NCBI RefSeq assembly: GCF_001427825.1 | Contig: NZ_LMGT01000009.1 | Location: 50,283 to 114,282, forward strand | Length of the DNA: 64,000 bases | Direction of reading: 5' to 3' | Source of the DNA: Brevundimonas sp. Root608 | GTDB taxonomy: Bacteria > Pseudomonadota > Alphaproteobacteria > Caulobacterales > Caulobacteraceae | Shown: positions 30,317 through 41,642 of the stretch, in pieces | Layout: each line of letters opens with the position of its first letter | Position numbering within the stretch: the first letter of the stretch is position 1 | The notes under the pieces: generated by a model | What the model was told of the DNA's origin: nothing | Seen by the model: only the letters and a program-made list of their open reading frames with translations | Database searches by the model: none | Position numbers and translations under genes: made by a program

Positions 30317-30378
30317 CGTTGCCGTAACGCCGGTTTTGGGGTTAGCCTCCCGCCATCGATCAACCTTGGGAGGGGATG

Positions 30379-30828
30379 ATGACCGATACGACAAGAGCCG
30401 CGGTTCCGTGGCATCTCTGGGCGGTGGGCGTGCTCTCGCTGCTGTGGAACGGCTTCGGCGCCTATGACTTCGTGATGAGCCTGACGCAGCGCGAAACCTA
30501 CTGGCGCGCCTCGGGCATGACCGACGCGATGATCGCCTATTACAACGCCATGCCGACCTGGATGTACGTTCCCTGGGTCCTCGGCGTCTGGGGCGCGGTG
30601 GCGGGCTCGATCCTGCTGTTGATGCGGAGCCGCTTCGCCGTTCACGCCTTCGCCCTGTCGCTGCTCGGCGCGGCGGTCAGCCTTCTGTACGGCGCTGTCA
30701 TCGACAAGGCCCCGGCGCCGCCGCCCGAATTGGCGATGATGGCTTGGATGCCGTACGTCATCACCCTGATCGCCGCCTTCCTGGCCTGGTACGCCTGGAC
30801 CATGCGCAAGCAGGGGGTGCTGGCATGA
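30379..30828 (+). CDS. Four-TM membrane protein, tandem paralogue 1
   Basis: A 149-residue protein with four predicted membrane segments: WHLWAVGVLSLLWNGFGAYD, VPWVLGVWGAVAGSILLLMR, HAFALSLLGAAVSLLYGAVI and YVITLIAAFLAWYAWTM. It is the first of three consecutive homologues sharing PWHLW, LLWNGFG or LWNGFGC, Y(F)NAMP, WGA/GLLG and AWYAWTM. GGGAGGGG precedes two successive ATG codons (30376, 30379); the second gives better spacing. It overlaps the next gene by ATGA. The family is not one I can name and the function is unknown. Confidence 0.8.
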   Translation: MTDTTRAAVPWHLWAVGVLSLLWNGFGAYDFVMSLTQRETYWRASGMTDAMIAYYNAMPTWMYVPWVLGVWGAVAGSILLLMRSRFAVHAFALSLLGAAVSLLYGAVIDKAPAPPPELAMMAWMPYVITLIAAFLAWYAWTMRKQGVLA

Positions 30829-31274
30829 GCGGCATGGGCATGGCCGAACGCGTCCGCACGCCGTGGCACCTGTGGATCGTCGGGATCCTCGCGGCCCTGT
30901 GGAACGGCTTCGGCTGCATCGACTATGTGATGACCCAGACGCGGCAGGACGAATGGTTCGCCCAGATGGGCATGACCGAGGCGCAGATCGCCTATTTCAA
31001 CGCCATGCCGGCCTGGACCCACGGGGCCTGGGCCATCGGCGTATGGGGCGGGCTGCTGGGCGCCATCCTGCTGTTGCTGCGCCGCAAATGGGCGACGCCG
31101 GTCTTCGTGATTTCCTTCCTCGGCTGGCTGGCGGGCGCGGTCTACGCCTTCGCCCTGTCAGGCGGGATGGAGGCCATGGGACCGATGTGGCCGATGCAGA
31201 TCGTGATCGGCGGCGCCTGCGTCTTCTTCATCTGGTACGCCTGGATGCTCGGCAAGAGGGGCGTCCTGCGTTGA
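30825..31274 (+). CDS. Four-TM membrane protein, tandem paralogue 2
   Basis: A 149-residue homologue of the preceding gene: PWHLWIVGILAALWNGFGCI, DYVMTQTRQDEWFAQMGMTE, AYFNAMPAWTHGAWAIGVWG, then GLLGAILLLLRRKWATPVFV, and FFIWYAWMLGKRGVLR at the end. The start at 30825 overlaps the previous stop by 4 bp (ATGA) and the stop overlaps the next start. It is closer to paralogue 3 than to paralogue 1 (shared WATPVFV, FLGWLAGA and AWTHGAWAI). Confidence 0.8.
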   Translation: MSGMGMAERVRTPWHLWIVGILAALWNGFGCIDYVMTQTRQDEWFAQMGMTEAQIAYFNAMPAWTHGAWAIGVWGGLLGAILLLLRRKWATPVFVISFLGWLAGAVYAFALSGGMEAMGPMWPMQIVIGGACVFFIWYAWMLGKRGVLR

Positions 31275-31708
31275 GCAGCGGCCGTTCCCCGGCGCCCTGG
31301 CATCTCCCGGTCGTCGGGGCCGTCGCCCTGCTGTGGAACGGGCTCGGCTGTCTCGACTACGCCATGACCCAGGTGCAGGGCGACGCCTGGCTCGCCAATA
31401 TGGACCCGACCGAGCTGCAGATGGCGTATTTCCACGCCATGCCCGCGTGGACGCACGGCGCCTGGGCGATCCTTGTCTGGGGCGGGCTGCTCGGCGGGGT
31501 CCTGCTGCTGCTCCGGCGCAGCTGGGCCACGCCGGTCTTCGTTGTGTCCTTCCTCGGCTGGCTGGCCGGCGCGATCTACGCCATCGGCCTGTCCAACGGG
31601 ATGCAGGCCATGGGGCCCTGGTGGCCGATGCTGATCGCCAAGGGCGCGATCTGCGCCTTCTTCGTCTGGTACGCCTGGACCATGGGCAGGAAGGGCGTGC
31701 TGCGGTGA
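31271..31708 (+). CDS. Four-TM membrane protein, tandem paralogue 3
   Basis: A 145-residue homologue: PWHLPVVGAVALLWNGLGCL, DYAMTQVQGDAWLANMDPTE, AYFHAMPAWTHGAWAILVWG, RRSWATPVFVVSFLGWLAGA and the final FFVWYAWTMGRKGVLR. It starts with TTG in a TTGA overlap with paralogue 2. The three genes are therefore translationally coupled and probably act together, for example as a hetero-oligomer; this is an inference from order and coupling alone. Confidence 0.78.
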   Translation: MSSGRSPAPWHLPVVGAVALLWNGLGCLDYAMTQVQGDAWLANMDPTELQMAYFHAMPAWTHGAWAILVWGGLLGGVLLLLRRSWATPVFVVSFLGWLAGAIYAIGLSNGMQAMGPWWPMLIAKGAICAFFVWYAWTMGRKGVLR

Positions 31709-31748
31709 GGGGCTGACGGACGGTCGGTCTTTCGCCTATGCAGGCGCG

Positions 31749-32474
31749 GTGACCGACCGTTCCCCCGTTTCCCTGTCCGACGCCGACATCGCCGCCGTCC
31801 GCTCGTGGATCATCCACGAGGACGAGGCCGTGATCGCCTTCAACAAGCCCGCCGGCCTGTCCAGCCAGGGCGGCCGCATCCAGGCCCATACCCTGGACGA
31901 CCTGCTGTGGGCCTTCGCCCGATCCAACGGCAAACGGCCCGATCTGGTGCACCGGCTCGACCGCGACACCTCCGGCGTCATCCTCGCGGCGAAGACCAGG
32001 CCGGCGGCCGGCTTCCTCGGCAAGGCCCTGCAGGCGCGGCGGTTCAGGAAGACCTATCTGGCCCTCGTCTCCGCCGCGCCGGAGCCGACCTCCGGCGTCA
32101 TCGACAAGCCGCTGTTGCGTCAGGAGATCGGCCGCGAAAGCTATATGCGCGCGGTCGCCCCCGACACGCCGGGCGCCCAGCCCGCCCTCAGCCGCTACCG
32201 CACCCTGTCGGCCACGGAGGACGGGGCCCTGGTCGAGCTGGACCCGGCGACGGGCCGCATGCACCAGCTGCGCGTCCACATGGCCTCCCTCGGCCGCCCG
32301 CTGGCGGGAGACGCCCGTTACGGCGGAGCCCTGACCTTCGCCGGCCGCGCCGCGCCCCGGCTGATGCTGCACGCCGCGAAACTGGTGTTTCCCCATCCCG
32401 AAGGCGGCTACCGCACCGTGGAGGCGCCCCCGCCCGCGGATTTCGAGGCCCTCAAGGCGGCGGCGGGGCTCTAG
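31749..32474 (+). CDS. RluA-family pseudouridine synthase
   Basis: A 241-residue RNA pseudouridine synthase without an S4 domain. The catalytic motif is DLVHRLDRDTSGVIL, with the conserved Asp in RLDRD; other family marks are EAVIAFNKPAGLSSQGG, ATGRMHQLRVHMASLGRPLA and GDARYGG. It starts with GTG at 31749; TATGCA lies 6 bp upstream, which would give a nearly leaderless transcript. The RNA target cannot be told. Its bases 31791-31814 are identical to the junction of the broken hydrolase gene at 33131-33154. Confidence 0.9.
   Translation: MTDRSPVSLSDADIAAVRSWIIHEDEAVIAFNKPAGLSSQGGRIQAHTLDDLLWAFARSNGKRPDLVHRLDRDTSGVILAAKTRPAAGFLGKALQARRFRKTYLALVSAAPEPTSGVIDKPLLRQEIGRESYMRAVAPDTPGAQPALSRYRTLSATEDGALVELDPATGRMHQLRVHMASLGRPLAGDARYGGALTFAGRAAPRLMLHAAKLVFPHPEGGYRTVEAPPPADFEALKAAAGL
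31791..31814. repeat. 24-bp exact repeat, copy within the RluA-like gene
   Basis: These 24 bases encode AAVRSWII in the pseudouridine synthase and recur exactly at 33131-33154. Here the repeat is an ordinary part of an intact gene, so it looks like the source copy. Confidence 0.8.
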
Positions 32475-32552
32475 GCGCCTCCGTATCGGCTGGCGGACAC
32501 AGGAACCTCCGACACCGCCCGGCGCTAATTCACACACGCCCGGAGATCCGCC

Positions 32553-33068
32553 ATGACCCGCTTCGCCCTGCCCCTGATCGCCGCCGCCGGGCTCGCCCTG
32601 TCGGCCTGCGCCAGCTTGGCCCCCTACGGCGCCCAGACTTCGCCGGGCGGGCAGGGCTATGCCGAGCAGCGCATCGAATCCAACCGCTTCCGCGTCACCT
32701 ACAACGGCGTCGGCGCAGCGGGTCCCGTGGCCGACATGGCCCTGCTGCGCGCGGCCGAGCTGACGACCTCGCAAGGCTATGACTGGTTCGAGGTCACCCA
32801 GCGCTGGATCGACGGACGGCCCGACAGCGCCGGCGGCATGCGCCCCAGCGTCGGCGTCGGCTACGGCTCCAGCCGCTACGACGGCCGCTACGGCAACTAC
32901 TCGGCCTCGGGCGTCGGGGTGGGCGTGGGCCTGAATTTCAGCGGCCCCTCGGCGACCTCGACCACGCTGGAGGTCGTCATGGGCAACGGCCAGAAGCCCG
33001 ACCGCCCGGACGCCTATGACGCCCGCGGCGTTCAGGACGCCCTGCGGCCTCGCCTCAGGGCTGGCTAG
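32553..33068 (+). CDS. CC0125/CC1285-family lipoprotein
   Basis: A 171-residue lipoprotein with lipobox LALSACAS near residue 20 and a mature part showing FRVTYNGVGAAGPVADMALL, ELTTSQGYDWFEVTQRWIDG and a Gly/Tyr/Ser-rich region (SSRYDGRYGNYSASG). The core matches the small lipoprotein family named after Caulobacter CC0125/CC1285; function unknown. The stop TAG overlaps the stop of the convergent broken hydrolase gene. Confidence 0.85.
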   Translation: MTRFALPLIAAAGLALSACASLAPYGAQTSPGGQGYAEQRIESNRFRVTYNGVGAAGPVADMALLRAAELTTSQGYDWFEVTQRWIDGRPDSAGGMRPSVGVGYGSSRYDGRYGNYSASGVGVGVGLNFSGPSATSTTLEVVMGNGQKPDRPDAYDARGVQDALRPRLRAG

Positions 33069-33384
33069 AGGCCGTTCACGAACGCGCCGACGGTGCGCCA
33101 CAGTTCAGCATCGTGGCCGATCCACAGGTGGCCGCCGTCCGCTCGTGGATCATCAGGACCGGCGGGCCTGGGCGGACGTCGGCGTATTCAATCTCTCCCC
33201 ACGGGCTGCCGACCACCCGGCTGCGCACCGACACGTGATCGCGGGCCTCGTCCATGTCCTGATGGAAAACGAGGGCGGCAGTCACGACGGCGGCGGTGAC
33301 CGCCACGCCGGCGATGACGAGCAGGCCGCGTCGGCGCGCCCTGGCCCGGCGCCGACGCATCCGTGGTTCGCCGAACAGATCCAT
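33065..33384 (-). pseudogene. Alpha/beta hydrolase remnant with internal deletion
   Basis: The 5' part encodes a basic N-terminus, a membrane anchor (LLVIAGVAVTAAVVTAALVF) and the first strands of an alpha/beta hydrolase (SRVVGSPWGEIEYADV, GPPVLMIH). Immediately after MIH the frame meets, shifted, what looks like the natural C-terminus: DGGHLWIGHDAELWRTVGAF, VNGL, stop at 33065. The whole catalytic core, about 200 residues in this family, is missing. In the first frame a 102-residue product would end at 33076. The junction (33131-33154) equals 24 bp of the RluA-like gene 1.3 kb away. Confidence 0.8.
33131..33154. repeat. 24-bp exact repeat at the hydrolase deletion junction
   Basis: Identical to 31791-31814 and in the same orientation. 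On the minus strand the ends of this segment suit the hydrolase on both sides (ATGATCCAC for MIH, GACGGCGGC for DGG), while the middle GAGC fits neither and comes from the other copy. It therefore looks like a templated patch. Confidence 0.75.
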
Positions 33385-33458
33385 AGCCGCCTCCGGTGCG
33401 GACGGGACCCTGTCCCGCCGCCACCGAGGCGTCCTTGACGAGAGTCAAATGCGGGCGA

Positions 33459-34655
33459 TCAGCGCCCGCCGCGCGTCAGCGCCCGGTATTCGACCAGCCG
33501 CTCCTTGTCGCGCCGCACCTGGTCGGCGACGGCGTTGTCGACGTCCAGCGAGGCGTAGCGGACCCAGCCGTCGACCCCCAGCTTGTCCTGGACCGCCGCC
33601 ACCGGCGTGCGCCAGCGGAAATAGGACAGCCAGCTGACCAGCAGGCCCAGCAAGGCGGCCAGTCCCTGCAGGGCGCGGAAACCGGCCTCGCCGGTGGCCG
33701 GCGCGGGCTCCAGCGCCAGGGCGGCCAGGCCGACGATCAGCACCAGCGGCGTCATCAGCCGCTGGGCCCAGCGCATCCAGTAGCGTTCGCGGCGCACGCG
33801 CCACAACTCCATCTGGACGTGCTTCTCGAGGTATTCCATCCGCGCGCCCAGCCACATGGTCAGCCGGGTCAGATACATGGCGCGCTGGCCCCAGCCCTTG
33901 CCGTCCTGCTGGAACTGGGTCTCGGCCTGGTCGGCCATGGCCCGGGCCGAGGTGAACAGGTTCTGCAGCTCGCGTGTCCTCTGAACGATCTCGCGCGACA
34001 GTTCGTAGGAGTCGTTCTCCAGCTGGAACCGGTACTGGATGAACAGCACCGCCTGCAGGCCCCAGTAGAGACCCAGCACCGCCAGCATGGCGCCCGCGGC
34101 CAGAGCCAGGCCCGTGGTCTCCGATCCGGTCCAGCCGGCGAACAGGCCGGGCCCGAGGATCGCCAGCGCGGCGAAGGCCGCCAGCGCCCCCGCCTGGCTC
34201 AGCCGCTTGACCGTCACGTGGACGATCAGCGCCCGGAAGACGCGCCGGCCATAGCTGTGGATCCGGCTGCGGATGTCCTGGTCGACCGGAAACCGTTCCT
34301 CGATCTGACGGCTGAACAGGACGTGGAACCGGTCCGGCTTGGCGTCGGTCTCCCAGAAGGGGAAGATGTCCAGCGGCTGGTTGAAATACTCGTCGATGTG
34401 GGACGAGACGATCGCCTCGGCCTCGGGCGTGGCGGCGAAATACTCGCTGTCCTGGATCGGGCGCAGGATGCCGTCGGCCGACCGCAGCGGCCCGCCGCGG
34501 GAGGCCGGCGTCGGCGGCGGCACGGCCCGATGGGCGCTGTCTTCCGCTCCGGGAGGCGGCGGATTCGGCGCCGCCTGCAGCCGCGCGTCATGGCCCTGAC
34601 CGCCGTGGCCGCCGTCCAGCGGCGTCGAGCCGGGTGTGTGATCGTCCTGCGACAT
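33459..34655 (-). CDS. Hypothetical membrane protein with coiled coil
   Basis: A 398-residue protein. The N-terminal 70 residues are Pro/Gly-rich and disordered; then RSADGILRPIQDSEYF, a soluble segment, two membrane helices (AGALAAFAALAILGPGLFAG; AMLAVLGLYWGLQAVLFI), a long helical region likely to form a coiled coil (YELSREIVQRTRELQNLFTS to LEKHVQMELWRVRRERYWMR) and two more membrane helices before a charged C-terminus. No family is recognised. The ATG at 34655 is chosen over the frame opening at 34763 because the intervening residues show no conserved character. Confidence 0.75.
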   Translation of the reverse strand: MSQDDHTPGSTPLDGGHGGQGHDARLQAAPNPPPPGAEDSAHRAVPPPTPASRGGPLRSADGILRPIQDSEYFAATPEAEAIVSSHIDEYFNQPLDIFPFWETDAKPDRFHVLFSRQIEERFPVDQDIRSRIHSYGRRVFRALIVHVTVKRLSQAGALAAFAALAILGPGLFAGWTGSETTGLALAAGAMLAVLGLYWGLQAVLFIQYRFQLENDSYELSREIVQRTRELQNLFTSARAMADQAETQFQQDGKGWGQRAMYLTRLTMWLGARMEYLEKHVQMELWRVRRERYWMRWAQRLMTPLVLIVGLAALALEPAPATGEAGFRALQGLAALLGLLVSWLSYFRWRTPVAAVQDKLGVDGWVRYASLDVDNAVADQVRRDKERLVEYRALTRGGR

Positions 34656-34833
34656 ACGCTTCGGCGGTCCCTGAAACTTGAACCCGGCAGTATGGCGGAA
34701 CGCCGCCGCCGGGCGATGATCTTCCCTCACAGCGCGAAGCGGCGCTGTAGCCTCAGGTATCACCGTTAACCCTGCGCCTCGGCAAGTGAAGTTTCGGTCA
34801 GGCGGCGCGCCTTCGCTTTCCCGGCGGGTCCGC

Positions 34834-41077: not shown

Positions 41078-41642
41078 CTGACCAACCTCCTCTTCCTCTG
41101 CTCCCGCAACCGCCTCCGCTCCCCCACGGCCGAGCAGGTGTTCGCGTCCCACCCCGGAGTCGGGACCGCCTCCGCCGGCCTGGCGCCCGACCTTCCTTTC
41201 GTCATCCTCCGGCAAGCCGCGCCTTCGCGGCGCAGACCGGGGGACCCAGCGGCGCGCGAGAGCGCGAACCTGTCCCGGACTCCGTCGTCAAACAGCGTGC
41301 CTGAACAGATCGCCTTCGGCGCCGCTGGGTCCCCCGGTCTCGCTGCGCTCGCCGGAGGATGACGAAAGGACAACAGGACGGGCCCACCTCATCTTCGTCA
41401 TGGAGCGCGCCCACCGCGCCAAACTCCTGCGCCGCTTCAAACCGCAGCTGAAGCGCGCCCGCGTCATCCGCCTCGACATCCCCGACGACGACGCCTTCAT
41501 GCAGCCCGAGCTGGTGGCGCTGCTGGAGAAGAAGGCCGGGTCGTTCCTCTGGCGTCCTTCTCCCGCAAGGGGGAACGGCGCGGGGTCGCCTGCGTCCGCT
41601 TTTGACGTACCGGCCGGCTATCATCCCAGTCCAGGTCTTTGA
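41078..41642 (+). pseudogene. Low-molecular-weight phosphatase-like gene, interrupted
   Basis: The 5' fragment reads TNLLFLCSRNRLRSPTAEQV, FASHPGVGTASAGLAPD, with the phosphatase P-loop CSRNRLRS. The 3' fragment, in another frame, reads LIFVMERAHRAKLLRRF, then VIRLDIPDD, AFMQPELVALLEKKAG. Both belong to a short (about 110-residue) protein tyrosine phosphatase-like family. Between them a 177-bp palindromic element replaces roughly a dozen residues. The usual start codon is absent: the fragment begins with CTG 8 bp after the TIR stop. The 3' frame runs past the normal end to 41642. Confidence 0.8.
41194..41370. repeat. 177-bp palindromic element inside the phosphatase gene
   Basis: Perfect 19-bp terminal inverted repeats (41194-41212 and 41352-41370) enclose a second perfect 22-bp inverted pair (41234-41255 and 41319-41340). 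A small hairpin (41216-41221 with 41226-41231) lies in the left arm. It could fold into a long cruciform. No coding sequence and no clear target duplication are seen. It resembles non-autonomous palindromic repeats of alphaproteobacteria; no second copy was found in the window. Confidence 0.75.

Follow-up and report, generated by a model that had tools for sequence, protein, structure and literature searches.

At the locus described here, within a 64-kb window (the whole stretch of DNA that was analysed), an intact gene for a pseudouridine synthase of the RluA type (31749-32474, + strand; PF00849, E 8e-30) and the remains of an alpha/beta-hydrolase gene lie on either side of an open frame for a lipoprotein-like protein (32553-33068, + strand; no Pfam family at E 0.1), the stop codon of which overlaps that of the hydrolase. 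Two parts of the hydrolase gene are left, both on the - strand. The N-terminal part, codons 1-80 ending in GPPVLMIH (33145-33384), is an open frame with 67.5% amino acid identity to the hydrolase of a related genome, G134. The C-terminal part, DGGHLWIGHDAELWRTVGAFVNGL (DGGHLW..., 24 codons and a stop; 33065-33139), shows 91.7% identity to the same protein; its codons occupy 33068-33139 and its stop 33065-33067, in a frame that differs from that of the N-terminal part. The open reading frame that runs from the hydrolase start across the seam is 102 aa long and matches no Pfam family over the cut-off. The initial annotation of this DNA described the N- and C-terminus of an alpha/beta-hydrolase fused with loss of the core and the frame, and this description holds: 80 and 24 codons are joined in different frames, and the gene is unbroken in relatives. 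No other hydrolase is matched in this genome at E 1e-30, and the genome is rated 100% complete.

The seam is formed by 24 bp (33131-33154) that are identical at all 24 positions to a segment near the start of the RluA-type gene (31791-31814, + strand), in the same (direct) orientation and 1340 bp apart. The exact 24-mer occurs twice in the whole genome (2,789,653 bases, 11 contigs), at the joint and in the RluA-type gene, which bears out the identity first noted from the window; a repeated genomic element as its source is ruled out by the copy number of two. Ranked by length, the 24-mer is second among the direct exact matches of the window, the longest (29 nt) being shared by two RluA-type paralogues.

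The hydrolase gene in related genomes

The locus was located in relatives through the lipoprotein-like neighbour, for which some match, close or distant, was obtained in all 131 genomes of the genus (E 0.001, this genome included). A hydrolase gene is present at the locus in five genomes (G131, G134, G136, G104 and G116) and is whole in three of these: the sister species G131 (aligned over residues 1-336), G104 (3-337) and G134, the 337-aa protein of which carries the Abhydrolase_1 domain (PF00561, E 1.8e-23). The G136 hydrolase is matched from residue 27 only, the locus being short there, apparently at a contig end. The match in G116 (locus L017) covers residues 8-301, with a 1-nt gap near the 3' end that is perhaps a frameshift and perhaps an independent loss. 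Weaker homologues are found in G122 (52%) and G098 (44%), and at E 1e-30 there is no match in the remaining 123 genus genomes or in this one.

A midpoint-rooted FastTree phylogeny was built from the RluA-type and lipoprotein-like genes of 29 taxa, namely this genome plus 28 relatives; the locus had been returned for 29 relatives, one of which was without a match. This genome groups with G131 (support 1.0) and then with G134 (0.795). Since both the sister G131 and G134 have a whole hydrolase, the simple reading of tree and gene content is that the gene would have been lost on this lineage's own branch. The junction, with up to 3 mismatches allowed, is found in 1 of the 131 genus genomes, which is this one.

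The remnant is closer in DNA to G134 (81% identity, Ks 0.41) than to G131 (75%, Ks 0.75), which makes G134 the preferable model of the ancestral gene. Both can be taken as proxies for the sequence before the deletion, and they differ in the codon at the right end of the joint, which gives a match of 7 bp with G131 vs 11 bp with G134. In its nearness to G134 rather than to the sister species, the remnant at 33145-33384 is unlike the flanking RluA-type and lipoprotein-like genes, and recombination between species might have contributed to this pattern.

Over the 80 codons of the N-terminal part, Ka/Ks on this branch is 0.70 vs 0.26 (G131) and 0.24 (G134), and 989 of the 1000 bootstraps give this branch the higher value; adding the C-terminal part lowers the ratio to 0.44 and the bootstrap count to 894 of 1000. 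For five nearby genes the ratio on this branch is 0.10-0.31, and two of these five lean in the same direction as the remnant (RluA, 919/1000 bootstraps; the gene at 33462-34763, 866/1000). These ratios hint weakly at a real, old pseudogene with some relaxed selection, and against an assembly fault.

Structure of the joint and its donor

Alignment with the relatives' hydrolase genes brought out both of the microhomologies that had been predicted for the ends of the joint. With G134 as reference, the left one, common to the hydrolase C-side and the donor, is 9 bp long (33131-33139), and the right one, common to the hydrolase N-side and the donor, is 11 bp long (33144-33154); between them lie the donor-only bases CGCT (33140-33143). 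On the + strand, the G134 hydrolase reads GGCCGCCGTC-GGGATAC on its C-side and CTGC-CGTGGATCATCAGGACC on its N-side, and the joint in the window reads GGCCGCCGTC-CGCT-CGTGGATCATCAGGACC. Hydrolase and RluA thus share the 9 bp to the left and the 11 bp to the right; CGCT occurs in RluA only. Relative to G134, 689 nt were lost and 4 nt (CGCT) gained. If the ancestor had the G131 codon, the left match extends to 33141 (11 bp) and the donor-only bases shrink to CT (33142-33143). Short homology is therefore present at each presumed switch point, 9 (or 11) and 11 bp by the G134 gene and 11 and 7 bp by that of G131.

For the sequence between the switch points the identifiable nearby template is RluA 31791-31814, of which 2-4 nt of the 24 are donor-specific and diagnostic, the rest being present in the hydrolase ends of relatives. 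Because the 9-11 bp on the left and the 11 bp on the right are also hydrolase sequence, copying of all 24 bp is not needed. The initial annotation had proposed that the 24 bp were copied from the RluA-type gene, with ends that suit the hydrolase and a middle that suits only the donor. The donor bases at the joint and both microhomologies agree with this, but what must have been copied, and what fits the donor only, narrows to CGCT or CT. A native place for the 24-mer in the intact hydrolase, an origin allowed for beforehand, is ruled out, as it occurs in none of the five relatives' hydrolases (best match 14/24, in that of G134); within the five loci, no place outside the matching RluA site exceeds 16/24.

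The donor segment is itself conserved. In the RluA genes of the 28 aligned relatives 18-24 of the 24 positions are kept, and RluA is accordingly the donor of the core and not the recipient; receipt of hydrolase sequence by RluA is ruled out for the core by the same counts. The exact 24-mer is found in 2 of the 29 aligned RluA genes (this genome and G021) and is missing from 27. RluA of G131 differs from the window at 1 of the 24 positions and that of G134 at 2, and since the 24-mer is incomplete in both, a G-to-A change in RluA of this genome is probably young. This change (Val-to-Ile), absent from RluA of G131 and G134, completes the 24-bp identity. Given the 1-base difference of G131, the donor match at the time of the event was perhaps 18 bp followed by a mismatch, and the identity may in part be younger than the event. 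A scar written in both directions has also been considered: annealing of RluA and hydrolase strands would have splinted the deletion, and mismatch repair of the heteroduplex would have edited RluA from G to A (Val to Ile). This elaboration is very doubtful; if true, a single third-strand event would have killed one gene and edited another.

Frequency of comparable matches

Maximal direct exact matches in the window number 695 at a length of 12, 35 at 15 and 5 at 17, a fall of ~2.7-fold per base. A first control consisted of 60,000 pseudo-junctions, each a random deletion of 300-1500 nt with a 2-nt random filler, searched on the direct strand. A match spanning the junction within 2 kb was at least 14 nt long in 58 of the 60,000, at least 18 nt in 2 and at least 20 nt in none; when the match could lie anywhere in the 64 kb, 1 of the 60,000 reached 24 nt. 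By our extrapolation of this tail, a 24-nt spanning match within 2 kb would arise by chance with a frequency of ~5e-8. The view that a chance match of 24 bp is very improbable is therefore well founded, none of the pseudo-junctions reaching even 20 nt within 2 kb. An 18-bp donor match, as it would have been had the RluA G-to-A change come later, is also rare (2/60,000 within 2 kb).

Splint configurations were counted in a second control, with the G134 gene as proxy for the ancestor, which makes the scan independent of the observed deletion. With a left match of at least 9, a gap of at most 4, a right match of at least 11 and a deletion of at least 100, thresholds that were set after the event had been seen, 415,416 endpoint pairs yielded 3 configurations on the direct strand within 6 kb; over the whole 64 kb, with both strands counted, there were 14. 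The real deletion, with the right filler, is one of the three within 6 kb, and two of the three, the real one included, use the same RluA site. At 9 + 9 the counts rise to 7 (6 kb) and 159 (64 kb), and at 8 + 8 to 66 and 1667; the observed event, with a left match of 9 in G134, drops out of the 10 + 10 set.

A second deletion 1.65 kb away provides a comparison. A DUF2214 membrane-protein gene (PF09980), which was read in G131 and by alignment is present in G134, has been lost at 34802-34805, where the joint contains the 4-nt filler GCGG and has no ectopic match longer than 12 nt within the 64-kb window. As a second splinted deletion this joint was not borne out, its best ectopic match in the window being 12 nt; it is what an ordinary joint looks like in this genome. 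For other deletions in the 64 kb, two places were viewed in alignment and one was tested for a splint.

Origin of the joint and its setting

From the comparison of these sequences, the hydrolase gene was probably inactivated on this lineage's own branch by a single event in which the RluA-type gene 1.3 kb away acted as a splint. The best explanation, a double template switch guided by microhomology or an annealing to a splint, has RluA as the third strand and would account for all the features in one event. On the hydrolase C-side, a 3' end or a single strand with GCCGCCGTC(CG) at its terminus would anneal to the same bases in RluA, where its extension would add a few bases: CGCT or CT at the least, and probably on through CGTGG.... 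Re-annealing at the second match, CGTGGATCATC, in the hydrolase N-side ~0.69 kb further on would then produce the outcome, in which 689 nt are lost and 4 nt gained (vs G134) together with the frame. From the scar we infer the direction and order of these events, the polymerase or annealing step and the singleness of the event. Of the template-switching error put forward in the initial annotation, the RluA-guided deletion is well supported by the relatives and the chance controls, but the same letters can also come from a duplication followed by a deletion.

By that two-step route, a tandem duplication of ~1.34 kb would first join the hydrolase C-side to RluA at GCCGCCGTC(CG). A deletion would then remove what lies between the second RluA copy and the hydrolase N-side, by way of the 11-bp repeat CGTGGATCATC, and the final sequence would not differ in a single letter. 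The route relies on the same pair of short direct repeats, both present and in the same orientation, and short repeats are frequent sites of duplication and deletion in bacterial genomes. Junctions of this kind at short repeats are described for E. coli in the excerpted text of PMC3161906. Two events are needed instead of one, however, and the intermediate must persist; no duplication is left here, nor did the loci of the five relatives, about 3-3.5 kb long, show one. We regard the two-step route as unlikely.

Other joining routes exist in this organism, as Ku is encoded and a LigD polymerase domain is present in a 912-residue open frame. In plain Ku/LigD end joining, the broken hydrolase would have been rejoined with 2-4 untemplated bases and the RluA match would be a coincidence. 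The deletion with a few added bases resembles bacterial NHEJ with filler, as does the neighbouring deletion at 34802-34805, the 4-nt filler of which has no donor in the window. The filler in the hydrolase, however, is spanned by a 24-bp match to a neighbour, which NHEJ does not predict, and is thus unlike the untemplated filler of that route; the coincidence would be one of ~5e-8 within 2 kb by the extrapolation above, and even an 18-nt match was obtained in only 2 of 60,000 pseudo-junctions. End joining is therefore an improbable source of the joint. An assembly or library chimera, offered as an alternative in the initial annotation, is highly improbable: the joint is known from a single assembly of 11 contigs, and a search of genome_contigs, which may omit the records of this genome itself, did not find it, but the homology of its ends, 9-11 bp to the splint and by eye ~5 bp to one another, is far below the usual assembler words, no intact hydrolase is found elsewhere in the assembly, and the Ka/Ks of the remnant gives a weak sign of relaxed selection.

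Microhomology-mediated template switching arises in replication or break-induced synthesis and depends on a polymerase. The proposed RluA-splinted deletion resembles its long-distance form in E. coli, or MMBIR, in its two direct switches, short homologies, use of nearby sequence and embedded deletion. For E. coli, the excerpts of PMC3161906 describe two direct template switches that leave an embedded deletion; the microhomologies there are 3 to 30 bp long at the joints of embedded inverted duplications, and three unselected deletions have 1 to 4 bp. The E. coli products in those excerpts are mostly selected kilobase amplifications, whereas here the middle is at most 24 bp, the deletion kills a gene and the genome is a natural one.

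In SPDIR, short ectopic DNA, also intragenomic, is joined in via microhomology on both sides, through annealing of ssDNA independent of RecA, and replaces short patches; Harms et al. 2016 is said to be its founding paper. The joint agrees with this in having an ectopic short patch with microhomology on both sides, and differs in that no patch of similar size was replaced, 689 nt being lost and 4 nt gained vs G134. SPDIR is named in the excerpted text of PMC7192050, and Harms et al. 2016 is cited in that of PMC8116780; the excerpts of PMC5312590 and PMC4437187 speak only of homology-facilitated and double illegitimate recombination. No description of a natural bacterial splinted deletion was recognised among the matches listed in the literature on SPDIR, template switching and kindred subjects, most subscription papers lying outside that scope.

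The type of mutation is thus already known, and the present joint is a clean natural example of it. In natural genomes a splinted deletion usually escapes notice for want of the ancestral sequence; here relatives keep the whole gene, so that each microhomology and the bases of the donor can be made out. A scan for this signature over many pseudogenes could tell how often bacterial gene loss passes through a third template.

A promoter and terminator scan of 31700-33500 found none. Upstream of the RluA-type gene, 30376-31708 holds three tandem paralogous small membrane-protein-like genes, for which DNA identity to the middle copy is 65-78%; no Pfam family is matched by the first of them at E 0.01. 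Further along the window, 41194-41370 contains nested inverted repeats with arms of 24 and 22 nt, perhaps a mobile or regulatory hairpin.
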